Positions 1 through 51,380 of a stretch of DNA of 64,000 nucleotides are shown here, in pieces. Positions within the stretch are counted from its first letter, which is position 1. Each line of letters starts with the position of its first letter. The translations under genes and the position numbers were made by a program. The notes below the pieces were generated by a model. The model was not told the origin of the DNA, made no database searches, and saw only the letters and a program-made list of their open reading frames with translations. The stretch comes from Vibrio sp. B1FLJ16 (GTDB lineage Bacteria; Pseudomonadota; Gammaproteobacteria; Enterobacterales; Vibrionaceae), in assembly GCF_905175385.1 (NCBI RefSeq), contig NZ_HG992750.1, positions 1,240,001 through 1,304,000 of the forward strand, in the 5' to 3' direction.

Positions 1-965
1 ATGTCTGGGTAGATGCTGAAGTTTTTGAGCGTCAGGCACACTGGATGAAAGCTGACAGCGACGCGACGATGACATTAGACGCCATTCCGGGTAAATCGTG
101 GCAAGGTAACGTGGATTACGTCTATCCGATTCTTGATCCTAAAACCCGGACTCTGCGCGTTCGTCTCAAATTTCCTAACCCGAACGGCGAGCTTAAGCCG
201 AACATGTTTGCCAACATCACACTGCAACCCGTGAGTGAAACCGCCGTGCTGACCATTCCGAGAGCCTCCGTTATCCGATCAGGTGGTATGACCCGCGTTG
301 TATTGGCTGAAGGTGATGGAAAGTACCGCTCAACCCGAATTGAAGTGGGACGCGAAGCCGATGACAGAACAGAAGTCTTAGAAGGCCTCAGCCAGGGCGA
401 CCGAATCGTCACCTCCGCTCACTTCATGCTGGATTCAGAATCCAGCCAGACGGCCGATCTCTCCCGAATCTCTGCACCGCAAGAGCCAACAGCGGTCACC
501 GCCTGGGCGAAGGGTGAAATTACTGATGTGATGAAAGACCATCGTATGCTGACCATAAACCACCAGCCCGTACCAGAATGGGACTGGCCGGGAATGGTGA
601 TGAATTTTACCTTCGCTGATGGTGTTGAACTGGGCGATTTACAAAAAGGTCAAATGATCGAATTCGAAATGAAAAAAACCGAATCTGGTCAGTACGAAAT
701 TATTGATGACAAAGCAGATGGCAGCGTCGTTGCTTCAGACATGTGGTTAACCGGTGACGTCAGTATGCTGATGGCAGATTTTGGCATGATCACACTAAAC
801 CACATGCCAGTTGCCGAGTGGAATTGGGATGCAGGGGAAATGAACTTTACGGTGGGTGACGAAGTCAATCTGTCTGGTTTTACAGAGGGGCAGAAAGTTC
901 GGTTTCTGATCGAAAAGCAAGGCTCTGACTACCTTCTAAAACAACTAGAAGCGGCTGAGGACTAA
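1..965 (+). CDS. cusB: CusB-type periplasmic adaptor of a copper/silver RND efflux pump, with two C-terminal CusF-like domains (5' partial)
   Basis: The gene enters from outside the window: the frame is open from base 3, before the first internal ATG at 45. It is the membrane-fusion subunit that links the inner-membrane pump CusA to an outer-membrane channel and hands over Cu(I)/Ag(I). The visible part holds the end of the beta-barrel/membrane-proximal region (PILDPKTRTLRVR, ITLQPVSETAVLTIPRASV), then two tandem CusF-like modules at about nt 501-715 and 738-950. Module 1 has the metal ligands His (INHQP), Trp and two Met (DWPGMVMNF). Module 2 has His (LNHMP), Trp and one Met (NWDAGEMNF); the other Met position is Gly. 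cusA follows after 2 nt, so the two are one operon. E. coli CusF is a separate protein; C-terminal fusions are known for SilB-like adaptors. Copper versus silver preference cannot be read from sequence. Confidence 0.9.
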   Translation, partial: VWVDAEVFERQAHWMKADSDATMTLDAIPGKSWQGNVDYVYPILDPKTRTLRVRLKFPNPNGELKPNMFANITLQPVSETAVLTIPRASVIRSGGMTRVVLAEGDGKYRSTRIEVGREADDRTEVLEGLSQGDRIVTSAHFMLDSESSQTADLSRISAPQEPTAVTAWAKGEITDVMKDHRMLTINHQPVPEWDWPGMVMNFTFADGVELGDLQKGQMIEFEMKKTESGQYEIIDDKADGSVVASDMWLTGDVSMLMADFGMITLNHMPVAEWNWDAGEMNFTVGDEVNLSGFTEGQKVRFLIEKQGSDYLLKQLEAAED

Positions 966-967
966 CT

Positions 968-3900
968 ATGATTGGAGCAATTATTCGTTGGTCAATCAAT
1001 AACCGTTTCATGGTATTGATAGCCACATTAGTCATCGTAGTGTCCGGATTATACAGCGTTAAAAATACCCCTGTGGATGCGATTCCTGACCTGTCTGACG
1101 TACAGGTAATCATCAAAACCAGCTATCCGGGTCAGGCACCGCAAGTGGTTGAGGATCAGGTAACCTATCCCTTAACGACAGCAATGCTGGCCGTTCCCGG
1201 AGCTGAAACGGTACGCGGTTACTCATTCTTCGGAGACTCGTACGTTTATATCATTTTCAACGATGATACTGACATGTACTGGGCAAGATCGCGGGTTTTG
1301 GAATACCTGAGTCAGGTTGCGCCCAAATTACCACCAAGTGCAAAACCGACCTTAGGTCCAGATGCAACGGGTGTGGGCTGGGTTTACAGTTACGTATTGC
1401 AAGACAAAACAGGTCAACACGATCTCGCAGAACTTCGCAGCTATCAGGATTGGTTCCTAAAGTATGAGCTGCAAACTGTCGATGGTGTATCTGAGGTAGC
1501 GACGGTTGGCGGCATGGTGAAGCAATACCAGATCCAGATCGATCCGGCTAAGTTACGTGCCTACAACCTCACTTTACAGCAAGTGAACATGGCTATTCAG
1601 AACGGCAACCAAGAAACGGGCGCATCCGTGGTGGAAGTTGCCGAAGCGGAACACATGGTTCGTACTACGGGTTACTTAACCAGTATCGAAGACATTGAAT
1701 CACTGCCGCTGAAAGTCACCGACAAAGGCACACCTTTGTTGTTGGGTGACATTGCCGACATCAACCTAGGGCCACAAATGCGTCGTGGTATCTCTGAGCT
1801 CAATGGCGAAGGAGAAGCCGTCGGTGGCGTGATCGTGATGCGATTCGGTGAGAACGCAAGTGAAGTGATCAGCAACGTCAAAGATAAGCTCAACGACCTG
1901 AAACGGAGTCTCCCTGATGGTGTAGAAATCGTTCCGACGTACGACCGCTCAACATTGATTGATGCCGCGGTTGAAAACCTCTGGAAGAAACTGGCGGAGG
2001 AGTTCATTGTCGTAGCCATCGTGTGTGCGTTGTTCTTGTTCCACATTCGTTCTTCTTTAGTGATCGCGCTCAGTTTGCCTGTTGGTATCTTAGCGGCGTT
2101 TATTGTTATGCATTGGCAAGGTATTAACGCCAACATCATGTCACTGGGCGGGATTGCCATTGCCATCGGGGCAATGGTGGACGGCGCGATTGTGATGATA
2201 GAAAACGTCCATAAGCATATTGAACGTACCCCACTTACTGACAAAAACCGCTGGCAGGTGATAGGAAAAGCCGCTGAAGAAGTTGGTGCGCCCCTGTTCT
2301 TCTCACTGCTGATAATCACCCTGAGCTTTGTTCCGGTATTCGCGCTGGAAGGCCAGGAAGGCAAGATGTTCTCTCCTCTCGCCTTCACCAAAACCTACGC
2401 GATGGCATCAGCAGCAGCACTGGCTATTACTCTCGTGCCTGTTCTGATGGGTTACTTCATTCGGGGCAAAGTACTCCCTGAACACAAAAACCCGGTTAAC
2501 CGTGGCCTAGTCGCACTTTATCGCCCGCTGTTAAATATGAGCTTAAACTATCCAAAGACGATGATCGTATTGGCTATAGCTCTATTGGCATCCGCTTATT
2601 ACCCTACCAGTAAGCTTGGTAGCGAGTTCATCCCACCACTGGATGAAGGTGATTTAATGTACATGCCGACCACCTATCCCGGCATTTCGATTGGTAAAGC
2701 TCGCGAGTTGCTTCAGCAAACCAACAAACTGATTAAAACCGTACCGGAAGTAAAAAGCGTATGGGGCAAGATTGGTCGTGCAGAAACCGCAACGGACCCG
2801 GCACCGCTGACGATGATCGAAACTGTTATTCAGTTCAAACCTCGTGATGAGTGGCGTGAGGGTGTCACTACCGAGTCGTTACGTAAAGAGTTTGATAATT
2901 TAGTGCAGTTCCCGGGGCTGACCAATGCCTGGGTAATGCCAATTAAGACACGTATCGACATGCTGGCGACCGGGATCAAAACGCCTATCGGGATAAAGAT
3001 CGCAGGCCCCGATCTCAAAGAGATCGAAAAGATTGGTGCTCAACTGGAGCCTATTCTTAACAACGTCACTGGTACCTCATCGGTTTATGCTGAGCGCGTT
3101 GCTGGCGGTCGCTACGTCACCATCGATATCAGACGTCGCGCGGCAGCCCGATACGGACTGAGCATTAAAGATGTTCAGCAGGTCGTTTCCACAGCGGTAG
3201 GCGGTATGAATGTCGGGGAAACTATTGAAGGTCTGGAACGCTATCCAATAAATGTTCGTTACCCACAAGACTACCGTGACTCTGTCATGAAACTTCAGAA
3301 CTTACCGCTGGTGACTCCAAATGGTGCTCGTATCGCCCTCGCTGATGTCGCAGACATCCGCTATGAAGACGGCCCGCCGATGATCAAAACCGAAAATGCA
3401 CGTCCTAATGGCTGTGTGTTTGTCGATATTGAGGGACGCGACCTTGGCTCCTACGTGGTCGAAGCACAACAAGCTGTCGCAGAACAACTGGTTATGCCCG
3501 CAGGCTACTCGCTGGCCTGGTCTGGTCAGTACGAATATATGGAGCGGGCGAAAGAGCGATTAAGCGTTGTCGTACCAATCACCATTGCAATCATAATGTT
3601 GCTGCTCTACTTCAGTTTCCGCCGTATAGGTGAAGTACTGATCATCATGTTGACTTTACCGCTAGCAATGGTCGGCGGCCTGTGGCTTATGCATTATCTC
3701 GGCTACAACTTCTCCATCGCCGTAGGTGTTGGATTTATTGCCCTTGCAGGTGTGGCCGTGGAGATTGGAGTCATCATGCTTGTCTACCTCAACCAGGCGT
3801 GGCACCACAAAAAGATTGATGCAGAAGAAAAGCAGCAGCCGCTACATCCTAAAGACCTGACGAATGCGATACGTGAGGGTGCAGGCTTAAGGGTACGTCC

Positions 3901-4108
3901 GGTCATGATGACCGTGCTGACCGTTATCATTGGTTTGATTCCAATCATGTATGGCGAAGGAACCGGCTCCGAAGTGATGCAGCGCATCGCCGCTCCCATG
4001 ATTGGCGGCATGGCCTCAGCCCTGTTACTGACTTTGCTGGTACTGCCAGCCATCTTCAAGCTGTGGAAACAGCGCGAACTCAAACTCACTCAAAGATCAG
4101 AGAAGTAA
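968..4108 (+). CDS. cusA: CusA/CzcA-family heavy-metal efflux RND transporter
   Basis: Full-length HME-RND inner-membrane proton antiporter of 1046 aa, the usual length. It should export Cu(I)/Ag(I) through the tripartite Cus complex. The N-terminus (MIGAIIRWSINNRFMVL) is typical, and the transmembrane proton-relay stretch GAMVDGAIVMIENVHKHIE is intact. In the periplasmic part, the EGDLMYMPTTYPGIS and RIDMLATGIKTPIGIKIAGP segments keep the Met residues that carry Cu(I) in E. coli CusA, favouring Cu/Ag over Zn/Co/Cd. The C-terminal half has the repeated six-helix block and ends RIAAPMIGGMASALLLTLLVLPAIFKLW. A GAGG ribosome site sits 7 nt before the ATG, and the gene starts 2 nt after the cusB stop. 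A Met/His-rich cupredoxin follows 62 nt downstream. Confidence 0.93.
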   Translation: MIGAIIRWSINNRFMVLIATLVIVVSGLYSVKNTPVDAIPDLSDVQVIIKTSYPGQAPQVVEDQVTYPLTTAMLAVPGAETVRGYSFFGDSYVYIIFNDDTDMYWARSRVLEYLSQVAPKLPPSAKPTLGPDATGVGWVYSYVLQDKTGQHDLAELRSYQDWFLKYELQTVDGVSEVATVGGMVKQYQIQIDPAKLRAYNLTLQQVNMAIQNGNQETGASVVEVAEAEHMVRTTGYLTSIEDIESLPLKVTDKGTPLLLGDIADINLGPQMRRGISELNGEGEAVGGVIVMRFGENASEVISNVKDKLNDLKRSLPDGVEIVPTYDRSTLIDAAVENLWKKLAEEFIVVAIVCALFLFHIRSSLVIALSLPVGILAAFIVMHWQGINANIMSLGGIAIAIGAMVDGAIVMIENVHKHIERTPLTDKNRWQVIGKAAEEVGAPLFFSLLIITLSFVPVFALEGQEGKMFSPLAFTKTYAMASAAALAITLVPVLMGYFIRGKVLPEHKNPVNRGLVALYRPLLNMSLNYPKTMIVLAIALLASAYYPTSKLGSEFIPPLDEGDLMYMPTTYPGISIGKARELLQQTNKLIKTVPEVKSVWGKIGRAETATDPAPLTMIETVIQFKPRDEWREGVTTESLRKEFDNLVQFPGLTNAWVMPIKTRIDMLATGIKTPIGIKIAGPDLKEIEKIGAQLEPILNNVTGTSSVYAERVAGGRYVTIDIRRRAAARYGLSIKDVQQVVSTAVGGMNVGETIEGLERYPINVRYPQDYRDSVMKLQNLPLVTPNGARIALADVADIRYEDGPPMIKTENARPNGCVFVDIEGRDLGSYVVEAQQAVAEQLVMPAGYSLAWSGQYEYMERAKERLSVVVPITIAIIMLLLYFSFRRIGEVLIIMLTLPLAMVGGLWLMHYLGYNFSIAVGVGFIALAGVAVEIGVIMLVYLNQAWHHKKIDAEEKQQPLHPKDLTNAIREGAGLRVRPVMMTVLTVIIGLIPIMYGEGTGSEVMQRIAAPMIGGMASALLLTLLVLPAIFKLWKQRELKLTQRSEK

Positions 4109-4170
4109 ACAATACGCGCCGAGGCATCAATAGCCATGGCGCTCCCTAATTGACTGAATAGGAAATGAAC

Positions 4171-4722
4171 ATGAAAAAGACACTTATCACTCTCGCTCTA
4201 ACAATGGCTACTGGTAACGTATTCGCTCAGATGGATCACTCCACTATGAACCATGACGACATGGACCATAGCCAGATGAATCAAAACTCCACGGTAATGG
4301 ATCACTCAAACATGGATCACTCTAATATGAGTGGCATGGTGGCGACTTCGGCAGTAGGTATGCCAGCAAAAGGGGCGAAACCAGATAAAGTCGTGCACGT
4401 ACTACTGAGCGACGACATGAAAATCACCTTCAAAAAAGAGGTGAAGATCGAACCAAATGATGTTGTCCAGTTTGTGATTATGAACACGGGAAAAATTAAT
4501 CACGAATTTACGATAGGCTCGGTAGAAGAGCAGCTTGCTCACCGTGAAATGATGAAAAATATGTCAGGCAGCCATATGCATGATTCAGATAACTCTGTCA
4601 CAGTCGAGCCGGGTAAAGCGAAGCAAATGCTTTGGCATTTCCACGGTGACAACAATGTAGAGTTTGCTTGTAATATTCCGGGTCACGCGGAAGCAGGTAT
4701 GGTGAAAAAACTAAAACTGTAA
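4171..4722 (+). CDS. Periplasmic Met/His-rich cupredoxin-domain copper protein (CopI-like)
   Basis: The 183-aa protein has a signal peptide (MKKTLITLALTMATGNVFA), a Met/His/Asp-rich linker with repeated MDHS motifs at about residues 20-55, and a cupredoxin fold at about 75-183. Candidate type-1 copper ligands are visible: His in GKINHEFTIG, then Cys and His in EFACNIPGHAEAGM with the final Met. This matches CopI-type copper tolerance proteins, so a periplasmic Cu-binding or Cu(I)-oxidising role is likely. The ATG at 4171 is chosen over 4165 because AGGA lies 7 nt before it but only 1-2 nt before the earlier ATG. It is probably co-transcribed with cusBA; a strong terminator follows at 4752-4777. 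The symbol copI is plausible but not assigned. Confidence 0.8.
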   Translation: MKKTLITLALTMATGNVFAQMDHSTMNHDDMDHSQMNQNSTVMDHSNMDHSNMSGMVATSAVGMPAKGAKPDKVVHVLLSDDMKITFKKEVKIEPNDVVQFVIMNTGKINHEFTIGSVEEQLAHREMMKNMSGSHMHDSDNSVTVEPGKAKQMLWHFHGDNNVEFACNIPGHAEAGMVKKLKL

Positions 4723-4807: not shown

Positions 4808-6142
4808 TCATCGCATCACAAACAGTTCTTCATGATAACGGTGCTCAGTATCAAATCGATACGCTGCAAGTTGCTGTTTTAATGCATCCGAGAAGGCTTC
4901 CGGCCCGCAAAAATACAGTTCATAATCAGCCAAATCACCGCACTGTTTAACAATGCGTTGTGCATTCAGTCTTGGGGAAACCTGAGTATCAATCACCCTT
5001 AATTGAACATCAGCCATATGAGCAACATGCCACAGCTCATCGACTAATTGACTGTCTAACCCTCGGGCACAATAGAACAAGTAGACTGGTTGATGCGATT
5101 GTCTCTCTTTTAACGAAGCGAGTATCGCGAAGAAAGCCGCAATCCCTACCCCACCTGCAACCCAGATCTGAGGTTTAGTCACATCAAACTCTAATCGCCC
5201 ATAAGGGCCCTCTAACGTGACTTTATCACCTGGCTTTATTCTGTTGTATAAACCTGTCGTAAAATCACCAAGCTCTTTAATCAAGAAGCGTAACTCAGGT
5301 TCACCGTTCGCTGACGCAATGGTAAATGGATGTGGGTCTTCACCGCCAAAACGTACATAAGCGAACTGTCCGGCTTTGTGTCCTCTCCAGGATTCTGTCG
5401 GTGTGACCACCAACTCCATCACACGGGCCTGCGGGAAAAACCGCGTTGATTTTACCGTCGTGCTGTGACGATTTGCCCGCCCAACAAAACCCAGCAGACT
5501 ATAAATAGCTGCAGCTGAACCCAGTAACGCGAAGGCTATAGATACGTAGTAAATCGGTTCACCCCAGTATGCTCGCTTGATGAGCAGCACGGAATGAACG
5601 GCAATCATCAGATAGATGGCGGCCATCAATCGGTGAGACAATTTAAATGGTTTATATTTCACCGCTGTCCAAAGAGAGATCGCAACTAAAACCAATAACA
5701 AGTAGAAGCCCCACTCACCTAGGCTTAGCCCGACATCTCGTAAATCCGCTATCCAAACTTCCCACCCTACTAAGTTATGCCCAGCAGGTCCTGCTCCAGA
5801 ATGTTTCACGGGTTTGTCTAACACACCTGACTCTACGAGCCATTTAGGGACTTGGTAAAGTAACCAGTGAACTACGCCTAAACTCACAGCGGAAATACCT
5901 AACCACTTATGCACCCGGTACGCTTTATCCATACCGTTTACCCATTGTTCAATCAACGGCAAACGTAATGCCAGCACCATGGCCACAGACATTAAAGCAA
6001 GGGATATCACACCCGAATACTGAATGAGCGCTGAGCGCCATTGGAAGAATTGCGTCGATGACAGTAGCTGCGGTTCGCTCATAAACCACATGACAGATAC
6101 GACAGCAATAATAAACCATACAGAATTTCGTACCGTTTTCAT
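4808..6142 (-). CDS. Ferric-reductase-like transmembrane flavohaem oxidoreductase
   Basis: The 444-aa protein moves electrons from NAD(P)H via FAD to haem in the membrane. The N-terminal half has about six membrane helices with two bis-His haem pairs (HKWLGISAVSLGVVH, with His residues 14 apart, and SHRLMAAIYLMIAVH). The C-terminal half is a ferredoxin-reductase module: FAD motif HPFTIASA, phosphate motif GPYGRLEF, nucleotide site VAGGVGIAAF and terminal FCGPEAF. The start is set at the ATG at 6142, where AGGAG lies 8 nt upstream; the GTG at 6151 overlaps that ribosome site. It is convergent with the copper operon, and a metal-reduction role next to copper genes is tempting but only inferred. 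Substrate unknown: ferric or cupric reductase, or a quinone/stress reductase. Confidence 0.8.
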   Translation of the reverse strand: MKTVRNSVWFIIAVVSVMWFMSEPQLLSSTQFFQWRSALIQYSGVISLALMSVAMVLALRLPLIEQWVNGMDKAYRVHKWLGISAVSLGVVHWLLYQVPKWLVESGVLDKPVKHSGAGPAGHNLVGWEVWIADLRDVGLSLGEWGFYLLLVLVAISLWTAVKYKPFKLSHRLMAAIYLMIAVHSVLLIKRAYWGEPIYYVSIAFALLGSAAAIYSLLGFVGRANRHSTTVKSTRFFPQARVMELVVTPTESWRGHKAGQFAYVRFGGEDPHPFTIASANGEPELRFLIKELGDFTTGLYNRIKPGDKVTLEGPYGRLEFDVTKPQIWVAGGVGIAAFFAILASLKERQSHQPVYLFYCARGLDSQLVDELWHVAHMADVQLRVIDTQVSPRLNAQRIVKQCGDLADYELYFCGPEAFSDALKQQLAAYRFDTEHRYHEELFVMR

Positions 6143-6353
6143 GATCACCACTCCTACACTGACGACAATTCTATTTTAGTGCACACCACGTAAAGCAACG
6201 TCAATAATGGTAAAGCAGAGTAAACAAGTGCGTTGATAGGAATAACAGAAAATCGACACGGATTTAACAGTCCACAGGGCCCTCCGTCGGTATAGTTTCA
6301 GCTCAATTCTTCGCAGTGCGGAGCAGAATGAAAAGAACAAAAGATGAACACTC

Positions 6354-7208
6354 ATGAAAAAGCTATTTTTTTTGATTGCGCTTATGGTCTGCTCGCCTTT
6401 AAGTCTCGCAAACAAGTTACATGAAGACATTTCTCTTCTTGAGCAGGAAATTGATGGTCGTATCGGGATTTCTATCTGGAATACACACTCAGACAGACAC
6501 TGGAATTATCGCGGAGATGAGCGCTTTCCTTTAGTCGGCACCTTTAAGACGTTAGCCTGCGCCACTATGCTGTATAAAATGGAGGCAGGCACTCTAAAAA
6601 GAAACGCCACGGCGGCAGTTGAAGAACACAAAATAGTAGGCTGGTCGCCAATTATGGATCAGATGACAGGGCAAGATGTTCGGATTGAACACGCTTGTGA
6701 AGCAGCCATGCTGATGAATGACAACACTGCGGCGAATCTGGTGTTACAGCAAATCGGCGGCCCGAAGTCCGTGACGCTTTTCCTTCGCACCCTTGGAGAT
6801 AATTCAACACGGTTGGATAGCCTGGAACCGAAAGTACATGACGCGCTACCAGGGGAAAACATCGATACCACTACCCCCAACGCAATAGTAAAAACGTTAG
6901 AAACTTTGATAGATGGTGATGCACTGTCTTATGAGTCTCGTGTGCAGCTCAAAATTTGGATGCAGGACAACTCAGTATCGGATTCACTGATGCGGTCGCT
7001 GTTACCCTCAGATTGGTCGATTGCCGATCGTACAGGTTCGGGAGAAAATGGATCGCTTGGTTATAATGCCGTTATCTGGAAAGAAAACCGGGAGCCAATT
7101 TATCTCAGCATCTACATCACCGACACCGAATTGTCTCTACAAGCTACAGAACAGCTCGCCGCGCATATCTGCCAGCTTATTTTATACCGGTACAGAAAAC
7201 TCCAATAA
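6354..7208 (+). CDS. CARB-like class A beta-lactamase homologue with both catalytic serines replaced (probable pseudoenzyme)
   Basis: Full-length 284-aa class A serine beta-lactamase fold with a clean signal peptide (MKKLFFLIALMVCSPLSLA), closest by eye to Vibrio CARB carbenicillinases: RFPL.TFKTLACATML, RIEHACEAAML, NDNTAANLVL, LKIWMQDN, DRTG. The active-site SxxK motif, however, reads GTFK: residue 62 (Ambler 70) is Gly, encoded GGC at 6537-6539. The SDN loop reads NDN: residue 122 (Ambler 130) is Asn, codon 6717-6719. Omega-loop Arg164 is Ser156 and Asn170 is His162, while Lys73 (K65), Glu166 (E158) and the Arg-Thr-Gly of the KTG box (226-228) remain. Ser70 is the acylated nucleophile in this family, so hydrolysis is not expected. 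The frame, signal peptide and terminator (7211-7239) are intact, which argues against simple decay. Confidence 0.9.
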   Translation: MKKLFFLIALMVCSPLSLANKLHEDISLLEQEIDGRIGISIWNTHSDRHWNYRGDERFPLVGTFKTLACATMLYKMEAGTLKRNATAAVEEHKIVGWSPIMDQMTGQDVRIEHACEAAMLMNDNTAANLVLQQIGGPKSVTLFLRTLGDNSTRLDSLEPKVHDALPGENIDTTTPNAIVKTLETLIDGDALSYESRVQLKIWMQDNSVSDSLMRSLLPSDWSIADRTGSGENGSLGYNAVIWKENREPIYLSIYITDTELSLQATEQLAAHICQLILYRYRKLQ

Positions 7209-7210: not shown

Positions 7211-7239
7211 AAAAGGTAGCGCTCAAAACGCTACCTTTT
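7211..7239. terminator. Terminator after the beta-lactamase homologue
   Basis: AAAAGGTAGCG / CGCTACCTTTT 11-bp perfect stem with 7-nt loop, immediately after the stop codon; T-rich right arm. Confidence 0.85.
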
Positions 7240-7366: not shown

Positions 7367-7864
7367 TTATGCGTACCCTGCCACACGCACTAAACGGAGG
7401 TTTTCGCTAGCTGTTGGAACTTCGAAATACTGGGTTACATGGTAAAATACAGCTTCTGTATCAAACTTAGCTCTTTCTGGTTGCTCAACTCGACGCTTAG
7501 CGATATTAGATAAACATTGCTCATCTGTTAAGTCTAAAAACCAAAGCTCATGTTCACTGTTAACTTCGAGACACAGTGATGTAAACCAAGTTCTTTGTCT
7601 TACGGTATTAGCTGGGAAATCCATGACAACGTTAACACCTGCATTAAGTAAGTTTTGAACATGGCTTTTAACGAAAGGCTTAATGAGGTTTGAGTATTTA
7701 ATGTAATCGTCAAACGTTTGAATTTTCGTAGGATAATGAGCAGACAGCCAATCATCTTCTGAAATTAGGACAGCATTATTATCAGCAGCTACAATCCTAG
7801 ATTTAGTGGATTTACCTGCTCCCATCTTGCCACAGAAGAAGAACAGTTTTCCCTGATTTTTCAT
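7367..7864 (-). CDS. P-loop (AAA_33-like) small-molecule kinase-like protein
   Basis: The 165-aa protein has a Walker A motif near its N-terminus (GKMGAGKST) and a probable Walker B/catalytic region (VNVVMDFPANT), followed by an Arg-rich lid (IAKRRVEQPERAKF). This is the layout of adenylate-kinase/zeta-toxin-like or aminoglycoside-phosphotransferase-like P-loop kinases. The substrate is unknown. The ATG at 7864 is preferred because GGAGG lies 4-5 nt before it; an upstream in-frame ATG at 7891 lacks one. It is the downstream-most of three minus-strand accessory genes; an integron attC-like element separates the other two, so it may be a cassette gene too. No antitoxin partner is visible. Confidence 0.7.
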   Translation of the reverse strand: MKNQGKLFFFCGKMGAGKSTKSRIVAADNNAVLISEDDWLSAHYPTKIQTFDDYIKYSNLIKPFVKSHVQNLLNAGVNVVMDFPANTVRQRTWFTSLCLEVNSEHELWFLDLTDEQCLSNIAKRRVEQPERAKFDTEAVFYHVTQYFEVPTASENLRLVRVAGYA

Positions 7865-7985
7865 GCTTCCTCCATTTACGTATATGCCCATGAATTAACG
7901 TGTTTATGTGCGATTTTATCGACATCATCTAATGTTGCTTTTCTAACACTAAACTTCAAGATTTCCTTATCTGCCTAACTCTGCA

Positions 7986-8633
7986 TTATGAGTATGATTT
8001 AAATGGTCCGAGATCTATGCCTTCGATGTCACAAACAGCCTTAACCGTTGGATTTGCATAAAGCCGATTCAGATATGCAGCCAGATGGTTGAAAGTAAGC
8101 GGTGACTTCTCTATTGGTAATGACCATTCCGCTAACATAAACAGGAAGTAATCGCATGCAGTTAGCGTATCACCAAGCAAGTATTCATTGTGCTCAAGCT
8201 GGTCGTTGATAATGGATAGTGCATCCGCAATTCTGTCATCTTGTGCCGCTACAACATTTGGAATAGCTGCTTCATCATTGGTATGGCGATGAGGATAATA
8301 GCGAACCATCAGTTCTGCTTGCAGCGTGTTATTCAGAAACGCTAGCCATTGATAAAATAAAGGTCGTTTAGGGTTACCTATAGATGGCATTAAATCTGAT
8401 TCTGGGTGCAATTCGCAGATATGCATGCAGATAGCTGGACTTTCGAAAATTGGTTGTTCGTTGACAACTAATGTTGGAATTCGACCAGCAGGGTTGAGCT
8501 TAAGATAATCCGCCGATTTCTGAGAGTTTGACTCTTTATCAACTAACAATAATTCATAATCAGCATTCAAGTGATGAAGCAAAAAATGAGGAGCCAGGCT
8601 CGCATTGTTTGGATAGTAGTAAAGCTTGAACAA
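7986..8633 (-). CDS. Glutathione S-transferase family protein, probable TTG start
   Basis: Cytosolic GST-fold protein: thioredoxin-like N-domain starting FKLYYYPNNASLAPHFLLH with the cis-Pro segment GRIPTLV and the glutathione-binding ESPAI motif, then an all-helical C-domain with the conserved ACDYFLF stretch. It would conjugate or reduce substrates with glutathione. The start is set at TTG 8633 (215 aa) because AAGGAG lies 6 nt upstream and family members begin right at this point. An ATG at 8669 would add 12 residues unlike any GST N-terminus and sits inside the attC-like element. The gene lies immediately downstream of that 125-nt element, as cassette genes do. Confidence 0.8.
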   Translation of the reverse strand: MFKLYYYPNNASLAPHFLLHHLNADYELLLVDKESNSQKSADYLKLNPAGRIPTLVVNEQPIFESPAICMHICELHPESDLMPSIGNPKRPLFYQWLAFLNNTLQAELMVRYYPHRHTNDEAAIPNVVAAQDDRIADALSIINDQLEHNEYLLGDTLTACDYFLFMLAEWSLPIEKSPLTFNHLAAYLNRLYANPTVKAVCDIEGIDLGPFKSYS

Positions 8634-8665
8634 AATGGACTCCTTGTCTCGAAAATTGCGGATAC

Positions 8666-8790
8666 TCATAACGATCTACAAAGGTCAGCAACGCAATACC
8701 GCCGTCGCCACATACCACCTTAAACACTTAAAACAACGTATGGTGAAAATGCCACACGTTGCGAATCCCTCTTGAATTTATGTGTTATGA
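8666..8790 (-). repeat. Integron attC site of the Vibrio repeat (VCR) type
   Basis: A 125-nt element, the usual VCR length, is bounded on the minus strand by complementary core sites TCATAAC (8784-8790) and GTTATGA (8666-8672). Inside, the minus strand reads CAAGAGGGATTCGCAACG, then GTGGCATTTTCA, GTTGTTTTAAGTGTTT and GCGTTGCTGACC. These match, from memory, the VCR blocks CAAGAGGGACTG.CAACG, GTGGCGTTTC and GCGTTGTCAGCCCC. GCAACG can pair with CGTTGC in the folded strand. The left core overlaps the stop codon of the 8785-9060 gene and the right core abuts the GST gene, exactly as in cassette arrays. No integrase gene lies in the window. Confidence 0.75.
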
Positions 8791-9060
8791 GGAATTTTTT
8801 AGCGACAGTTTTTCTTTGTATTTTTTGTACTCTCTACTTGTGAAACACCAGTCCCAACCAGCATAAAATACAGCTCCAAATAACGTCATTAAATAAACTC
8901 GATACGACACAATTGGGGATAAATCCAGATAAAAATCGTTTTGGACAAATGCACCGCCTAATATAAATGGAATACAAAACCCTAAACCGTGTCCTAAAAA
9001 GTGTCTGAAAAAGCCTTTCTTTTGAGTCTTTAGCCACTCAACTTGTCTTTTCCTTTCCAT
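8785..9060 (-). CDS. Small two-helix membrane protein of unknown function (cassette gene)
   Basis: A 91-aa protein with a basic N-terminus (MERKRQVEWLKTQKKG), two hydrophobic segments (about residues 24-40 and 54-70) and a charged Lys-rich tail (REYKKYKEKLSLKNSS), so both ends are probably cytoplasmic. No family was recognised. GGAAG lies 5 nt before the ATG. Its stop codon is embedded in the attC-like element at 8666-8790, which makes it the upstream partner of a cassette junction. Small membrane proteins without known function are common integron cassette cargo. Confidence 0.6.
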   Translation of the reverse strand: MERKRQVEWLKTQKKGFFRHFLGHGLGFCIPFILGGAFVQNDFYLDLSPIVSYRVYLMTLFGAVFYAGWDWCFTSREYKKYKEKLSLKNSS

Positions 9061-9436
9061 CAGTCTTCCATAGTCCCTTAAATGACTCGCAACGATAAGG
9101 CGTTAGCCAAAAACCGTTTCTTCTCCTACGACTATGATGCAACCTTTTGTTTCTCGGTTCAATTAACAATCAATAGATTAGCGAAAAGTAAGAGATGTTG
9201 GATTGCAAAATGACGCATAGTATTAGAAAAGCTGACTGCTGACTCCTTCGGATAAATTTTGGTCAGGAAAACGTATATTCACAGATTTTGAATGAGTTTC
9301 AACTCTATATAAGTAAAGGGGCATTTTTAAGTTAGTGCATATTTTGCAACAATTGTGATCAACAAGTGATTCTGTCGTACCTAAAGCGTCAACGACCACT
9401 GTTTCTTGCAGTGGTCGTTTTGCACCGAATAATCAA
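9061..9436. other. 376-nt gap with a terminator-like hairpin
   Basis: No coding sequence seen. At 9391-9419 there is an 11-bp perfect inverted repeat AACGACCACTG / CAGTGGTCGTT followed by TTTT, placed just past the end of the GH4 gene. Around 9085-9110 the minus strand reads GGCTAACGCCTTATCG, weakly like an attC end, but no complete second site was found. Confidence 0.5.
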
Positions 9437-10762
9437 TTATGCTTCAAACATCCAGCGAAATTGAGGCATATAATCCAGGTTTTCTTTTACTGTTTCTCTC
9501 AATGCTTCATCCAGTACAGTTCCGGTATTAACGATAGGATTCAATATCAGGCCACGTTTAGCCGCAACAAGGTTACCTGTGACTGCTGCTTCAACAGTCA
9601 GTGACTCAAACTCTTTCATTAGCTGAATAAGTCGCAAAGTATCACTTGGGAATGGTGCAACATTAAGCGGTAGTGGACCATTTTTAGTGATCAAGGAGCT
9701 GACTTCGACAGCACAATCATCAGGTAACTCACTTATCGTACCGTTGTTGCGCGTATTGACATGCATGATAGTACGCTTGTCGTTATAGATGGATGCCATG
9801 AGTTCACAAGCCGCTTCTGAATAATACTGACCGCCTCGTTTTTCCAACTCTTTAGGCTTTTCTGCCAAATCTGGATTTTTATATATATCAAATAGACGTT
9901 TTTCCATCTCTTTAACGACCTCACCACGAGTCCCTTCACTATCAGCTTCGTGCTGCTCCTGCTGCATGATATCGTCACTGGTGTAGTAATAACGCAGGTA
10001 AGCGCAAGGAATCATACCCATATTTTGGAGCAGATCCTTTGGCCACTTAAATGGAGGAATATTTGCAGGAACTAAAGGATCGTTACCACTGAGAATTTCA
10101 TTCATTACGTGACCCAGTTTGTCCTGCCCTTCGTGCAGGATCTTACGCGCCCAAATGAGGTGGTTTAATCCGGCAACTTGCATGATGAAATCGTCTTCCT
10201 TCGCGTTCAGCATTTGTGCTACGCCTTTTTGCATGATGACAGGGACATTGCACAAGCCAACCGCTTTGACTTTGGTATGTTTAAGAACCGCTTCAGTCAC
10301 CATGCCCGATGGGTTGGTAAAATTCAGTAACCAGGCGTCTGGGCACAGCTCTTCCATATCTCGGCAAATCTCCAGCGTAATAGGGATTGTGCGACACGCA
10401 TTAGCAAAACCACCAAGTCCGTTGGTTTCCTGGCCAATCATGCCATATTTAAGTGATATACGTTCATCCCTAATACGACCTTCGAGACAACCTGCTCGGA
10501 ACTGAGAACAGACAAAATCAGCATTTTTCAGCGCAGGACGGCGGTCGAGCGTTACATGAACCTTAATATCCAAGCCTTCCTTTTTGATCATACGGCGAGC
10601 TAAGCCAGCAATGATATCTACCTTTTCCCGACCATCTTCAATGTCGACTAACCACAGTTCACCTATCGGCAATTCATTTTTATGTTTTAATAAGCCTTCA
10701 ATTAACTCGGGTGTGTAACTAGAGCCGCCACCGATCACAGTGATTTTTAGTTGTTTGTCCAT
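9437..10762 (-). CDS. Glycoside hydrolase family 4, probable 6-phospho-beta-glucosidase
   Basis: A 441-aa NAD+/Mn2+-dependent GH4 enzyme, usual length, which hydrolyses phosphorylated disaccharides delivered by a PTS. It starts with an NAD-binding Rossmann motif (ITVIGGGSSYTPELIEGL). GH4 hallmarks follow: GQETNGLGGFANACRTIP, LNFTNPSGMVTEA, and GLCNVPVIMQKG with the metal-binding Cys; AGLNHLIW supplies the next His. The CNVP form is typical of 6-phospho-beta-glucosidases (CelF/LicH/ChbF group) rather than alpha-galactosidases. AGGAAA precedes the ATG. No PTS transporter lies next to it. The divergent LysR-type gene at 10872 probably controls it. Exact disaccharide (cellobiose, chitobiose, arbutin) is not decidable here. 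Confidence 0.85.
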   Translation of the reverse strand: MDKQLKITVIGGGSSYTPELIEGLLKHKNELPIGELWLVDIEDGREKVDIIAGLARRMIKKEGLDIKVHVTLDRRPALKNADFVCSQFRAGCLEGRIRDERISLKYGMIGQETNGLGGFANACRTIPITLEICRDMEELCPDAWLLNFTNPSGMVTEAVLKHTKVKAVGLCNVPVIMQKGVAQMLNAKEDDFIMQVAGLNHLIWARKILHEGQDKLGHVMNEILSGNDPLVPANIPPFKWPKDLLQNMGMIPCAYLRYYYTSDDIMQQEQHEADSEGTRGEVVKEMEKRLFDIYKNPDLAEKPKELEKRGGQYYSEAACELMASIYNDKRTIMHVNTRNNGTISELPDDCAVEVSSLITKNGPLPLNVAPFPSDTLRLIQLMKEFESLTVEAAVTGNLVAAKRGLILNPIVNTGTVLDEALRETVKENLDYMPQFRWMFEA

Positions 10763-37300: not shown

Positions 37301-39792
37301 ATGTCTGACTTTAAAACGCTGCCAAAACTCGTCACCGTAGCTGTCACATTAGCTCTCGCTGGTACCGCCACAGCTGGCAAACATCACGAACAACAAAATC
37401 ATGATCGTGGTAATCACCACAAACTACAGCTTCAAGACAGTGATATTAAGTACACTAAGAAAGCAGAATCCATGCTTAAAAAAACTTAGCCTCAGTGAAA
37501 AACTGGATATTCTGTCAGGTCCCGGAATGGACTTAACCACCTATCAGGGCCAGGACGCGATTAATTTAGATTCTGACAAAGACGTAAGCGGTGTCGCTGG
37601 CTATATCAATGGCGTTAAAAATAAAAAATTAGATATTCCGGCGGTAAAACTGGCAGACGGCCCTGCCGGTTTAAGGATTCAACCGTTACGTGATGGGGAC
37701 AACAATACGTACTACGCAACAGCCTGGCCTATTGGTTCTTTACTGGCTTCAACATGGGATACCAAGCTGGTTCAAAAAGTTGGTCAGGCCGAAGGTAATG
37801 AAGTCAAAGAGTATGGCGTCGACTTTTTGTTAGGCCCGGGGATGAACATTCAGCGTAACCCGCTTCTGGGTCGTAACTTTGAGTACTATTCTGAAGACCC
37901 GGTTTTATCAGGAAAAATCGCGGCAGCAATGGTAAACGGACTTCAATCCAATCAGATAGGTGCCACACTCAAACACTTTGCTGCGAACAACGCAGAAACA
38001 AACCGCTTTTTCAGCAATACCGTGGCTGACCCTAGAACTCTACGCGAAATTTACCTGAGAGGCTTTCAGATTGCGGTAGAAGATGCGCAGCCATGGGCAA
38101 TCATGAGCTCGTATAATCTCATCAATGGTACCTACGCGAACCAACGTAAAGACCTTATGACTGATATTTTAAGAGGCGAATGGGGCTTCAAAGGTCTGGC
38201 AATGTCCGACTGGTTTGCAGGCAACGTCTCTGGCTTACGAAGTGACTTCACTGGAATTGTAGAGGGCGGACGAGATGTCGAGTCAGCAGCCAAACAAGTC
38301 AGTGCGGGTAATGATTTAATCGAGCCGGGTGGCGTCAAAACGGACCTTCTCAATTCTTATGAAAATGGCACGCTGACAATCGAAGAGATTGATAAAAGCG
38401 TTGTTGCCATTCTTGCTCAAGTGCAGAAAACGCCTTCATACAATAACTACAACTACTCTGATGCTCCGGATCTCGATGCACACGCTGAGTTGGCAAGACA
38501 AGCAGCGGCAGAAGGTATGATCTTACTTAAGAATACAGGGTCCGCTCTTCCACTCTCACAAGGAAGTAAAGTAGCTTCATTTGGTACCACTCAGATTAAT
38601 ACCCTTAAAGGAGGCACAGGCAGTGGTGATGTGAATGCCGCCTACATTGTCCAGATTGCTTCTGCACTGGATGAAAAATTCGTACTCAATAAAGATTTAA
38701 CCAGTTATTACAGTGAATACTTCGAAGCGAACAAGCAAACAACCAGTTCGCTTCTCGGGGGCTATGAGTTCTGTTTAGAACCAACGGTAGATGAAAGCCT
38801 GCAAGCGCGCGTAGATGAGTCTGCAGAGAGTGACGATGCCGCCGTCATCACTATTGGTCGACAGGCTGGTGAAGGTGGTGACCGAAGTGCAGAACAAGGT
38901 GATTATCGTCTGACAGATGAAGAGCTGGAAATTATTGATTCGGTTTCAACGGCTTTCCATGCTAAAGGAAAAACCGTCACAGTCGTACTCAATGTGAACG
39001 GTCTTGTTGATACATCAGAATGGTCAGAGAAAGTAGATTCGATTGTTCTGGCCTACATGGGCGGACAAGAAACCGGCAACGCGATCGCCGACATTCTGGT
39101 TGGGGATGTAAACCCAAGTGGTAAACTGGCACAAACAATGCCTAAAGCATACGAAGATGTACCTTCTTCAGAAACATTCCCAGGCGAAGATACCGATGAT
39201 GACGGTCTACCAGATACCGTCAAATACAATGAAGGTATCTACGTTGGCTACCGCTACTACTCTTCGTTCGATAAGGCTCCGGCGTATCCGTTTGGTTACG
39301 GCCTTTCCTACACGAACTTCGAGTACAGCAATCCAACGATTGTCTCTAATACGCTGACCAAAAAAAGGCGGATCTGCTTCAATAACCATCAAAGCTACAA
39401 TAACCAACACCGGTAATGTTGAAGGTAAAGATGCTACTCAGATTTATGTGGCCGCACCAGAAGTGAAACTGAAAAAACCGACCATCGAGCTTAAAGCATT
39501 CAATAAAACAGCGCTGCTAAAAGCAGGTCAGTCAGAAACACTGAGTTTCGATATCCCTGCTAACATCCTTGCGAGCTTTGATACCGACAGCAATCAGTGG
39601 ATTGTCGAACCCGGCGCTTACACCGTTTATGTAGCTCCGTCTTCAGATGTGTTTGGTGATTTCACAGGTAGCGCTGCACCATCAGTACAATTTACGGTTA
39701 ACAAAGAGATTGTCGTTAGTAAAACGATCAAGAATGCGTTGTCATTAGAAGACGGCATAACGGAGGAGGAAATTATTACAATTAAAGAATAA
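37301..39792 (+). pseudogene. Glycoside hydrolase family 3 gene broken by two frameshifts
   Basis: A secreted GH3 beta-glucosidase-like gene of about 830 codons in three frames. Frame 1 (37301-37489) gives the signal peptide (MSDFKTLPKLVTVAVTLALAGTATA). Frame 2 (to 39416) gives the GH3 barrel (LADGPAGLRIQP, GPGMNIQRNPLLGRNFEYYSEDP, KHFAANNAETNR, nucleophile Asp in GLAMSDWFAGN) and the second domain. Frame 3 (to 39792) gives the fibronectin-III-like end (ITNTGNVEGKDATQIYV...). Each switch falls in an A7 run (37478-37484, 39360-39366), and removing one A restores frame both times. All catalytic motifs are intact, so this is either a recent double loss or homopolymer sequencing error. Terminator at 39809-39833. 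Confidence 0.85.
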
Positions 39793-47334: not shown

Positions 47335-48414
47335 CTAAGCTTCCACGTAAGTTTTTCGAACTCGCTTGGTCAATTTGATGACGAGCTCATAGGGAATGGT
47401 ACCTATGTATTTTGCAACGTTTTCAATAGGCAGGTTATCCCCCCAAAACTCAACCTTGTCTCCAACGGTGTCTAATGCGTCAGGGCCTAGATCCACCGTA
47501 ACCATATCCATAGAAACACGGCCAGAAATCGGTACAATGCGCCCGTTGATGTAAACCGGTGTGCCTTCTGGTGCATTTCTCGGATACCCGTCCCCGTACC
47601 CCATTGCAACAACGCCGATGTAAGTGTCACGATTTGATCGCCAGCTTTCACCATAACCGACAGGTTGATTCGCCTTATGTTCACGAATGGCAATCAGTCT
47701 AGAGTTCAGCGCCATTGCGGAGCGCAAGCCATGCTGCTTACCCGTTTCATTTTCATTAGGGCTGATTCCATAAAGAGAAATACCTGCTCTCATATAATCT
47801 AAGTGAGAGTCATTCCAGTATAAAATCCCAGCTGAGTTCGCCAGGGTCTTAGGCCCGGGAAAGCCGGAGGTCTGTGACAAAAACAACTCTATCTGATGCT
47901 GTGTTTTGGAAGAAGACATATTGTCAGCACAGCTAAAATGGCTCATGAATCCGACAGGCCCGGCGAGTTTATTGGTCGCTTCGATCTGTCGGACGTAATC
48001 GGTAATCTCAGCGGGATGAATTCCCAACCGGTGCATTCCTGTATCAAGTTTGAGCCAGACCGTAACTGGCTGAACGATATCCGCTTGCTTAAGATCCTCC
48101 AACTGCTCTTTACAATGAATCGCAGTGTGGAAACCTTCACGAGCTGCCGTTTCGAGGTCGTCAATACAGAAACAGCCCTCAAGGAGCAGTATCGGTTGTT
48201 TTATGCCTTCGCTTCTCAGTTCCAGCGCTTCTTCGATACGAGAAACAGCAAACATATCTGCTTGCTTAAGTGTTTGAGCGGTTTTTACTGCATTATGCCC
48301 GTAAGCGTCACCTTTAATAACAGCAACAACCGATTTGTTGGCACACTTTTCCTTAAGTAAATTGTAGTTATCGCTCAATGCTTTTAGATTGATAACGGCT
48401 TCAGCAGTGATCAT
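47335..48414 (-). CDS. alr: Alanine racemase (PLP fold III)
   Basis: A 359-aa cytoplasmic enzyme that interconverts L- and D-alanine. The PLP lysine is in VVAVIKGDAYGHN (residue 34; note KGDAYGH where most have KANAYGH). The second-domain Tyr lies in QPVGYGESWRSNRDTYIGVVAMGYGDGYPR and the GRVSMDM motif is present. No signal peptide, so it is not the periplasmic broad-spectrum racemase BsrV of Vibrio. AGGGA lies 7 nt before the ATG. It is divergent from a D-glutamate/D-amino acid operon starting 987 nt away, so it may serve D-alanine catabolism as well as wall synthesis. Confidence 0.9.
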   Translation of the reverse strand: MITAEAVINLKALSDNYNLLKEKCANKSVVAVIKGDAYGHNAVKTAQTLKQADMFAVSRIEEALELRSEGIKQPILLLEGCFCIDDLETAAREGFHTAIHCKEQLEDLKQADIVQPVTVWLKLDTGMHRLGIHPAEITDYVRQIEATNKLAGPVGFMSHFSCADNMSSSKTQHQIELFLSQTSGFPGPKTLANSAGILYWNDSHLDYMRAGISLYGISPNENETGKQHGLRSAMALNSRLIAIREHKANQPVGYGESWRSNRDTYIGVVAMGYGDGYPRNAPEGTPVYINGRIVPISGRVSMDMVTVDLGPDALDTVGDKVEFWGDNLPIENVAKYIGTIPYELVIKLTKRVRKTYVEA

Positions 48415-48909
48415 TCACTCGTCCCTAGTAATATACCAATCAAAGCAGGTATCTAATCACTCTTGCTGGTTATCATCGCTGATAGCTAGGTTTCAGATGT
48501 TATTATCAGACTCTCTCATAACAACATCTTCGTCTTTCTAAGCAATATCCCTTCGCGAAGACCTGACTATTTACATATCCCGATTGGTTTGTGTTCATCC
48601 ATGACAGCTCAACCAACGCTTTTCTAGTTGTGCGTTGTAAATAACCTAAAATTCACCTCAGCAATATACAGACCATCTCCTCTTTAATTATCAAGCCAGT
48701 GCATATAATTGGAAATTTCTAATTTTACAGTTAAATAGACTAACTAAAAATGCATCCCATAAGTTCTAAATCGCCGCATTCAAACCTGCATTATATTTCA
48801 TAAAATATAACAATCACAGAATAAAATAAAATTAAAGGATCTGAATTTTTGTAGCCTAAAACTCATACCAGCTAGACACTACCTATCTAACCTGTACATA
48901 AATTAGCAC

Positions 48910-48954
48910 TTTATGCACCAACAATGAACATTTAGATTCATTTTGGTGCATAAA
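48910..48954. promoter_or_regulatory. Long inverted repeat with NtrC-like half-sites upstream of dgcN
   Basis: TTTATGCACCAA (48910-48921) and TTGGTGCATAAA (48943-48954) are perfect complements; inside, AATGAA and TTCATT extend the stem with a single bulged C. Each arm reads TGCACCAAMAATG, close to one half of the NtrC site TGCACCA-N5-TGGTGCA, but the gap is longer than normal. It could bind a regulator on DNA or fold as RNA. Confidence 0.45.
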
Positions 48955-49313
48955 ATATAAAAATTCAGAAAGAACAGAGAGCTTTAACTACTGCCATAAG
49001 CAACAAAGCTTGAATTAAGTCACATAATAGAATCATCTATTAATCCACTTACAGCTGGTATAAACAACCAATGTAATCACACTACCCAATTTTATAGATA
49101 AGACGTGGAATTCACTGCGTCATAAAACAATCTGTTGTTAATTCACATATCAGCTTCAAATAAAGTCTGATCGAAAAGTTGAAAACAGAATATTATGAAA
49201 AAATGACACGCTGAATACATATTCACAACAATGGCTACAATTGAATAAATATTGCATGAAAGTAACTTTCATTGCTTATACTTTAAATATTCTGCCATAT
49301 TTATTGATGTTGC

Positions 49314-49329
49314 TGTCACGAATTTTGCA
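49314..49329 (+). promoter_or_regulatory. Sigma-54-like promoter of dgcN-dgcA-dat
   Basis: TGTCACGAATTTTGCA fits TGGCACG-N4-TTGCA with one mismatch (the second G of the -24 GG is T), 73 nt before the dgcN ATG. Confidence 0.5.
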
Positions 49330-49401
49330 CTGTAGTTTGTATTTAGTAGCAAAATTAATAGCTACTTCATCAACGGATTTACAACATGGAGTGAACATAA
49401 G

Positions 49402-50406: not shown

Positions 50407-51380
50407 TGAAGGTAACTCTGTATACAAAAAGTTGGCCTATTCTTGGTAGTTTTACTATCTCTCGCGGTAGTAAAACCCACGCTGAAACCATCATTGTAGA
50501 AATCGAACACCAAGGCATCAAAGGGCGCGGAGAATGCGTCCCTTATGCCCGATACGGCGAGTCTATTCAAAATGTCCTGGCTCAGATCGAAGGGATTATT
50601 CCAGAAATTGAAGCAGGACTAAGCCGTGATGATTTACAGCCATTGTTACCGTCAGGCGCAGCCCGCAACGCGGTTGACTGTGCCATGTGGGATTTGGAGT
50701 GCAAGCAAGACAAGCAATCTATCTGGGAGAAGGTTGATACAGTCGGTGGAGAGCTAACCACCGCATATACCCTCTCACTTGATACACCAGAAAACATGGA
50801 AAAAAAGGCGATAGAGCATTCTCACCGACCACTGCTTAAGCTGAAGTTAGGCGGTCCCGACGATCTGGAACGTGTTCAGGCGGTACGCCGCGGTGCACCG
50901 AATTCGGTAATCATTGTTGATGCAAACGAGGCCTGGACGATAGAAGCCTATCAACAGCTCATTCCTGAACTGCAAAAACTTGATGTTTCGATGATCGAGC
51001 AACCATTCCATGCAGACGAAGATTACATGCTTGATGGTCTTGAACGTCCGATTGCGATTTGTGCCGACGAGTCTTGCCATGACTGCATGAGCCTAGAAAA
51101 GGTGATTGGTCGCTACGACATGATCAATATTAAGCTGGATAAAACTGGCGGTCTGACTGAGGCACTGGCCCTTAAAGAACAGGCAGAAGCAGCGGGGTTA
51201 CGAATCATGGTCGGCTGTATGGTGGCCTCTTCATTAAGTATGGCTCCCGCATTTGTTGTCGCCCAAGGTGCAGAAGTCGTCGATTTAGACGGCCCGTTAC
51301 TGCTGAGCAAAGATATCGAGCACGGCTTTGAATTTGAAAATAATTCTATGCTGCCTTTCCGCAGTGAACTGTGGGGGTAA
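50406..51380 (+). CDS. dgcA: Enolase-superfamily epimerase, N-acetyl-D-glutamate racemase (DgcA) / dipeptide epimerase type
   Basis: A 324-aa enolase-superfamily enzyme. The C-terminal barrel has the catalytic lysines in LLKLKLGG (KxK) and NIKLDKTGGL, and the metal ligands Asp in IIVDANEAW, Glu in MIEQPFH and Asp in CADESCHD. These are the marks of the Ala-Glu dipeptide epimerase branch. Paired with DUF1611 next door it should racemise N-acetyl-D-glutamate to the L-form. The start codon overlaps the dgcN stop by one base (TAATG); dat follows 10 nt after its stop. Confidence 0.85.
   Translation: MKVTLYTKSWPILGSFTISRGSKTHAETIIVEIEHQGIKGRGECVPYARYGESIQNVLAQIEGIIPEIEAGLSRDDLQPLLPSGAARNAVDCAMWDLECKQDKQSIWEKVDTVGGELTTAYTLSLDTPENMEKKAIEHSHRPLLKLKLGGPDDLERVQAVRRGAPNSVIIVDANEAWTIEAYQQLIPELQKLDVSMIEQPFHADEDYMLDGLERPIAICADESCHDCMSLEKVIGRYDMINIKLDKTGGLTEALALKEQAEAAGLRIMVGCMVASSLSMAPAFVVAQGAEVVDLDGPLLLSKDIEHGFEFENNSMLPFRSELWG

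Follow-up and report, generated by a model that had tools for sequence, protein, structure and literature searches.

This work describes a β-lactamase-like gene in a 64,000-nucleotide stretch of the Vibrio sp. B1FLJ16 genome (contig NZ_HG992750.1, positions 1,240,001 to 1,304,000; referred to here as the window). The gene is a CARB-type class A β-lactamase by descent and fold, and its product lacks both catalytic serines. We consider it probable that the protein is a pseudoenzyme derived from the Vibrio chromosomal CARB carbenicillinase: it would not hydrolyze β-lactams and would be kept by selection as a folded periplasmic scaffold, most likely for protein-protein contact under VxrAB signaling. 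This reading draws on a clade of orthologues with shared losses of catalytic residues, on purifying selection, on a release from constraint that is specific to the pocket, on a retained locus and promoter element, and on the presence of vxrAB in the same genome.

The open reading frame (ORF; 6354 to 7208, forward strand) runs from an ATG start to a TAA stop, encodes 284 amino acids, and has no internal stops. Ambler numbers are taken from the alignment. A sequence-only reading of this DNA had described an intact CARB-like protein without either catalytic serine, and the codons bear this out: codon 62 (6537-6539) is GGC, which puts Gly70 in place of the SxxK nucleophile (GTFK), and codon 122 (6717-6719) is AAT, which replaces the SDN serine with Asn (NDN). 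The changes that it listed at positions 164 and 170 are present as well, as Ser (AGC, codon 156, 6819-6821) and His (CAT, codon 162, 6837-6839). To these we add Val at position 69 (6534-6536) and Leu at 244, where 29 of 29 intact relatives have Met and Arg. Among the features described as kept, Lys73 (6546-6548), Glu166 (6825-6827), and the full-length frame are all in place, as is the signal-like N terminus (judged by eye); the claimed terminator was not confirmed, as described below.

The window protein matches Pfam PF13354 at 118.2 bits and passes the general class A model of NCBIfam, NF033103 (264.4 bits, cut-off 200). The NCBIfam CARB models are the top-scoring ones, yet they stay under their cut-offs (NF000188, 468.1 of 600 bits; NF000481, 404.7 of 430 bits). 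An AlphaFold2 model built from a 42-row alignment has a mean predicted local distance difference test score (pLDDT) of 91.5 and a predicted template modeling score (pTM) of 0.89, and it superposes on the structure 6izc with a root mean square deviation (rmsd) of 0.8 over 259 columns and a target-normalised TM-score of 0.97. Taken together, homology, fold, gene tree, and synteny establish CARB-type descent. Of the residues expected in a CARB enzyme, Glu166 is present, and Ser70 and Ser130 are replaced in every member of the clade described next (Gly70 in 6/6, Asn130 in 6/6).

Relatives were gathered in surveys of increasing breadth, with good coverage of Vibrionaceae and thin coverage of other groups. 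Across the genus, the window protein found matches in 53 of 196 genomes at an E value of 0.001 and in 49 of 227 at 1e-60; across the family, a threshold of 1e-30 gave 95 places in 92 of 329 genomes, and all 95 sequences were read. The cysteine pair C77 and C123 is present in 95 of 95, and the core of S70, K73, S130, E166, R/K234, and R244 is complete in 86. The nine incomplete sequences comprise five members of the window clade, the orthologues of V. mytili and Vibrio sp. CAU 1672, and a pair of more distant genes, L131 and L136 (L and G numbers are our handles for loci and genomes). In a single scan of named genomes with two peptide patterns, the best 80 of 84 relatives had Ser70 in 73 cases and Gly70 in 3, with the position unreadable in 4; these three Gly70 genomes are Vibrio sp. 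J1-1, a metagenome-assembled genome (MAG) whose protein is identical to that of G080, and V. mytili. Vibrio sp. J1-1 is the sixth member of the window clade.

This clade spans six Vibrio species (L001, the window gene, with L002, L003, L004, L005, and L034), which have V69, G70, N130, and L244 in common. Its support in the gene tree is 100/100, also when eight catalytic columns are masked. Gly70 is encoded by GGC, GGA, GGG, GGA, and GGA in L001 to L005, and Asn130 by AAT or AAC; the differing codons indicate that the residues persist through synonymous change. The R234-S/T-G triad is retained, as RTG in the window protein and RSG in the other five. All six members have Thr71; Lys73 and Glu166 are each absent from one member, and the secondary changes vary by member: K73N in L005, E166A in L003, R164S in L001, L002, and L004, and N170H in L001. 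The sequence-only reading had proposed that orthologues with conserved Gly70 and Asn130 under low dN/dS would support a repurposed protein, and had named universal Ser70 among orthologues and stop codons in close relatives as signs to the contrary. We looked for all three. Six species share the two residues in a clade with support of 100/100 and an ω (dN/dS) of 0.082, and the frames are open in 6/6.

The window's genome holds a single match to the window protein, and a search with PF13354 and PF00144 for a compensating second enzyme of class A or C found none there (classes B and D lay outside this search). Four other PF13354 matches in that genome are ORFs of 384 to 492 amino acids that resemble D,D-carboxypeptidases or PBP4 by length only, and the one other PF00144 match is weak and falls on the same protein as one of these.

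Codon substitution patterns show purifying selection. Under the GY+F3X4 model in IQ-TREE, ω is 0.082 for the six clade members and 0.085 when only the five closer ones are used; 12 intact enzymes on the nearest branches give 0.046. For the 10 pairs among five clade members, YN00 gives ω values of 0.068-0.109 at a synonymous divergence (dS) of 0.31-0.73; of the five pairs that include the window sequence, four returned no YN00 value, and dS by the Nei-Gojobori method (NG86) was saturated in the two tried. The sequence part of what defines a pseudoenzyme, loss of required catalytic residues with purifying selection retained, is thus found in this clade.

The distribution of the losses is informative. 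Among 59 columns of the mature protein that are invariant in 29 intact enzymes, seven (69, 70, 73, 130, 166, 170, and 244) are altered in one or more members of the clade, and all seven belong to the pocket. This corresponds to 7/15 pocket columns versus 0/44 others (Fisher p 1.9e-5) for a 29-position pocket list drawn up once the first changes were already in view; with position 69 moved outside the pocket, the counts become 6/14 versus 1/45 (p 4e-4). When each of the 12 intact enzymes was compared with the others, 11 had no such change and one had a single non-pocket change.

Partitioning the protein into 29 pocket positions and 236 others leads to the same picture. The ratio of pairwise differences in the pocket to those in the rest is 0.14 for the 12 intact enzymes, 1.45 for the six clade members, and 1.99 for the five. 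Separate fits give pocket and rest ω values of 0.004 and 0.046 for the intact enzymes and of 0.118 and 0.061 for the six clade members. A joint fit with our own codon-model script, in which pocket and rest share branch lengths, yields 0.0082 and 0.044 for the 12 intact enzymes (likelihood-ratio test [LRT] statistic 25.3, p 5e-7) and 0.101 and 0.063 for the clade (LRT 3.2, p 0.07). Holding the clade pocket at 0.004 costs an LRT of 85.8, and the converse constraint, 0.101 imposed on the intact pocket, costs 79.3; setting ω to 1 in the clade costs 136 for the pocket and 576 for the rest. The pocket is no longer specially conserved and has become ordinary, and the protein overall is still constrained. 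Pocket positions that vary between clade members number 12 of 29 (72, 73, 104, 164, 166, 170, 171, 214, 215, 235, 237, and 240).

Retention extends to the region upstream of the gene. In an alignment of 18 orthologous upstream regions (the six of the clade and twelve others, including V. mytili and CAU 1672), the pattern ACA(n)AAAA(nnn)AC(n7)TAACAG, followed by TCG(n)TATAGT, is invariant in 18/18. Three ACA boxes are likewise kept in 18/18, with one mismatch in L004, and resemble a published VxrB motif as judged by eye. A search for the promoter pattern in 11 genomes, with one mismatch allowed, gave 11 matches, nine of them upstream of this gene: eight are exact, and that in G040 has one mismatch. 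Neither G043 nor G135, which carry the other Gly70 family (L131 and L136), contains a match. The window's genome holds one match to the element, and a slightly stricter pattern matches the window solely at 6245 and is not found in 100 shuffles. The TATAGT element is not among the results of a sigma-70 scan, which demands a -35 hexamer; that scan returned one promoter-like site, at chance level.

For V. cholerae, the VxrB motif is reported as TTGACAAAA-N2-TTGAC, and the vadR promoter as having three conserved elements; the same work reports activation by penicillin G, equates VxrAB with VbrKR and WigKR, and calls the exact signal of VxrAB unknown (PMC7695739). For V. parahaemolyticus, VbrK is reported to sense β-lactams and activate a lactamase gene (PMC7666205). 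The window's genome carries the gene order vxrA-vxrB-DUF2861. Its VxrA scores 642.6 bits against model NF041841 on a 344-amino-acid stretch cut by the end of the locus, for which the cut-off of 750 applies to the full protein. The adjoining response regulator scores 454.7 bits to 7e1b, listed as a DNA-binding response regulator, which we take to be VbrR. The gene is probably still within the cell-wall-stress regulon.

In class A enzymes, Ser70 forms the acyl-enzyme, Ser130 takes part in proton transfer, and Arg244 recognizes the substrate carboxylate. We propose that an ancestor of this small group of species lost the acylation nucleophile, the proton-shuttle serine of the SDN motif, and the carboxylate-binding arginine, and that it retained the fold with its signal-like N terminus and C77-C123 pair, as well as its place in the genome and a promoter element of the VxrB type. 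Without Ser70 no acyl-enzyme would form, and loss of Ser130 and Arg244 would impair proton transfer and recognition of the carboxylate; with all three missing, hydrolysis of β-lactams is not expected. Given the conserved N terminus, cysteines, fold, locus, and promoter, together with a release limited to the pocket, a noncatalytic job for the scaffold is suggested. The scaffold, presumably periplasmic, would contact a protein partner when VxrAB signals damage to the cell wall. Candidate partners would include proteins that build or repair the cell wall, or a further component of the VxrAB response.

Several points weigh against this proposal. A pattern read backward as a control, with one mismatch allowed, gave 7 matches in the 11 genomes, including one in that of the window, which makes the promoter pattern weak by itself and leaves its position at the gene as what counts. 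Control by VxrB in the clade species would rest on a likeness, seen by eye, to a motif from V. cholerae, and the predicted lack of hydrolysis on the general class A mechanism. Within the clade, a permutation test finds no clear difference between pocket and rest (p 0.10 for six members, 0.047 for five), so the pocket is ordinary, not free; W105, P107, D131, N132, P167, V216, R234, G236, G238, and others are retained in all six. The scaffold is itself slightly relaxed (rest ω of 0.063 versus 0.044; p is 0.029 with the clade rest fixed at 0.046 and 6e-5 with the intact rest fixed at 0.063), and the selection data contain one allele per species.

A broader version of the scaffold proposal is possible, although we hold it only tentatively: Vibrio CARB proteins may always have had a second, noncatalytic job in the periplasm, as part of the VxrAB response to cell-wall damage and on the exterior of the fold, with the V. 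natriegens-V. mytili group keeping only that job and the L131/L136 family repeating the loss. If enzyme activity was dropped and the second job kept, the pocket would be released and the scaffold and promoter would not.

The main rival to a scaffold role is that the protein binds ligands noncovalently, holding β-lactams or muropeptides uncut as a sponge, carrier, or co-sensor. Several pocket residues (W105, N132, R234, G236, and G238) are fixed in all six members, and the clade pocket evolves at an ω far under 1. Moreover, engineered S70G variants of CTX-M-14 (6cyu and 6cyq) carry hydrolyzed cefotaxime according to the titles of these entries, and binding may thus survive the removal of Ser70. 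Arg244 and Ser130, however, are missing in all six. These are ligand-contact residues of class A enzymes. In addition, 12/29 pocket positions differ among clade members, and the roughly five- to elevenfold lower pocket ω of the intact enzymes is lost. We therefore regard ligand binding as unlikely, if better placed than any other rival. The sequence-only reading had suggested a new role such as β-lactam or muropeptide binding, a decoy, or a sensor: retention under purifying selection agrees with a new role, and its pocket-based versions lose weight, given that special conservation is gone from the pocket and mostly preserved in the scaffold.

An enzyme with altered chemistry, in which another residue (e.g., Thr71, or Lys73 together with Glu166) works on some other substrate, is highly improbable. 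Thr71 is present in 6/6 and Lys73 and Glu166 in 5/6 each, but one member lacks Lys73 and another Glu166 within the same well-supported, selected clade, and the pocket has no special conservation. Slow decay of a still unbroken pseudogene fares marginally worse. The catalytic residues are gone, and the rest of the protein has an ω slightly above that of the intact enzymes; against this stand an ω of 0.08, open frames in all six at a dS of 0.31-0.73 among five, the LRT cost of 576 for neutrality in the rest, a retained promoter element, and losses at invariant columns that are limited to the pocket. We rejected a decaying pseudogene on the low ω. Finally, an error in sequencing or assembly, or a lone laboratory mutant, has nothing in its favor and a negligible chance of explaining G70 and N130, because the same residues recur in five other species, with differing synonymous codons in the five sequences read at codon level.

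Catalytic residues have been lost elsewhere among the relatives. L131 (in G043) and L136 (in G135) are CARB-like open frames with G70, G130, and F166; the two share 74% identity (NG86 dN 0.165, dS 1.63) and are 39-40% identical to the window protein, and they share a locus other than the blaCARB locus (L131 in L195, G043:C27; L136 in L196, G135:C2). G043 additionally carries an intact class A gene, L130. The V. mytili orthologue (L016/L038) has T69 and G70 and retains S130, R244, and the rest of the core; it is possibly an intermediate step of the loss. At the V. mytili locus, the neighboring cusA- and cusB-like frames are each split into two ORFs. The orthologue of Vibrio sp. CAU 1672 (L018/L044), on a long branch at the standard locus, retains Ser70 and is changed at K73T, W105G, N170S, R234H, and seven more otherwise-invariant sites, which makes another loss of function likely.

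The number of Gly70 origins lies between one and three, since the tree tests reject neither grouping and V. mytili falls within the host group by gyrB. V. mytili joins the clade in the gene tree at 87/62. When the catalytic columns are masked and further long-branch rows are included, it shifts beside L018 and L131/L136; constraining it to the clade in the masked alignment is not rejected (p 0.387), and neither is a single clade of all nine Gly70 rows in the approximately unbiased (AU) test (p 0.133). In the gyrB tree, the five searched host species group with V. mytili (90/79), which is sister to the window species (97/95; the V. mytili gyrB is partial, 1,863 of 2,439 bases).

One clade member resides in G153, which is almost certainly V. 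natriegens: among 11 genomes, only G153 has an exact match to a dns guide spacer published for V. natriegens, and the match lies within an endonuclease-like ORF (G086 has two mismatches). In V. natriegens work, carbenicillin is used for selection at 10 ug/ml (PMC10863642) and at 100 ug/ml (PMC7933001), and plasmid loss is checked by growth with and without 100 ug/ml (PMC10682008). Such routine selection fits a dead CARB without proving it, and the sensitivity could also stem from weak expression, a further point against the scaffold reading. Nothing direct on a V. natriegens carbenicillinase was found among the papers listed in the literature searches.

The features of the gene and its surroundings are collected in Table 1. 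The cusB-like, cusA-like, and cupredoxin-like neighbors (45..4722) mark the ancestral blaCARB locus, which intact orthologues such as L006 and L031 also occupy. When 14 loci, including those of the five other clade members, were compared with the window, a cusA-like gene stood in the same block at 13 and the ferric-reductase-like neighbor at 12: L115 (G176) has the latter without the former, and L117 and L043 lack the ferric-reductase-like gene. In L035 (Vibrionaceae MAG P03SST1Cbin.14), the ferric-reductase-like neighbor is split into two ORFs (8453-9274 and 9288-9788).

Table 1. Features of the CARB-type gene and its neighborhood, in window positions
Feature	Position	Strand	Basis or remark
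CARB-type class A β-lactamase, probable pseudoenzyme, intact frame	6354..7208	+	284-amino-acid ORF, profile matches, fold model
Signal-peptide-like N-terminal segment, residues 1-19	6354..6410	+	Kept in relatives; assigned by eye from alignment
Val69-Gly70 (Met69-Ser70 in intact relatives)	6534..6539	+	Alignment
Asn130 at SDN motif position	6717..6719	+	Alignment
Omega-loop segment: Ser164, Glu166 retained, His170	6819..6839	+	Alignment
Leu244 (Arg in 29 compared intact relatives)	7056..7058	+	Alignment
Three ACA boxes, 11-bp spacing, VxrB-motif-like (by eye)	6245..6270	+	Kept at intact and dead orthologues
Putative -10 element TATAGT	6291..6296	+	Invariant in 18/18 upstream regions
GGTAGCG/CGCTACC hairpin past stop codon, only four T, possible terminator	7211..7239	+	Sequence inspection
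Ferric-reductase-like flavocytochrome gene, divergent, usual locus neighbor	4808..6151	-	Family search, synteny
cusB-like gene	45-965	+	Named by eye
cusA-like gene	968-4108	+	Named by eye
Cupredoxin-like gene	4165-4722	+	Named by eye

The hairpin past the stop codon is absent from the output of a terminator scan, whose one terminator-like match lies inside the gene on the opposite strand. Similar hairpins follow the stop codons of L003, L004, and, in part, L016, as judged by eye.

Elsewhere in the window, the reverse strand at 7367-7891 encodes a kinase-like protein of the AAA_33 type, whose weak match to Zeta-toxin falls just short of the cut-off (22.0 versus 22.3 bits). The region 47335-52248 holds an alanine-racemase-like gene (reverse strand) and then DUF1611-like, dipeptide-epimerase-like, and D-amino-acid-aminotransferase-like genes (forward strand), all named by eye; they look like genes of D-amino acid or muropeptide metabolism. 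At 37401-39416 (forward strand), an ORF resembling family 3 glycosidases has, by eye, an unrelated-looking, frameshift-like C terminus.

Class A β-lactamases are textbook resistance enzymes. Here the catalytic apparatus is lost and the gene retained, which suggests that the fold serves another function in the cell, and with a clade member almost certainly in V. natriegens, a laboratory organism described as nonpathogenic (PMC12925634), this question is open to direct gene removal. Such a gene is likely to be miscalled as a resistance gene by homology, as the window protein clears the general class A model by 64.4 bits, and surveys that rely on homology will score genes of this kind as resistance. 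Genotype and phenotype are reported to be discordant for V. parahaemolyticus blaCARB alleles with a conserved predicted active site (PMC11921324).

Pseudoenzymes are already known as a kind. A conserved clade of naturally dead class A enzymes appears unreported in the literature searched: no report of one was found among the titles and abstract openings of the open-access papers listed. The closest solved relatives, at 67% identity, are the chromosomal CARB structures of V. parahaemolyticus (6izc and 6izd); 6izc has STFK, SDN, and Arg244, whereas the window protein has G70, N130, and L244. The PSE-4 carbenicillinase is catalytically competent and found on acquired elements. It belongs to the same family (1g68; rmsd 1.2, ~40% identity to the window protein) and has Arg234 (title of 1g6a). 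The L131/L136 family is CARB-like with G70, as is the window clade, and differs from it by G130, F166, its locus, and the lack of a promoter-pattern match. The S70G variants of CTX-M-14, going by the titles of 6cyu and 6cyq, resemble the window protein in combining Gly at the acylation serine with an intact fold; they are laboratory variants, whereas the window clade is natural, conserved, and also devoid of S130 and R244.
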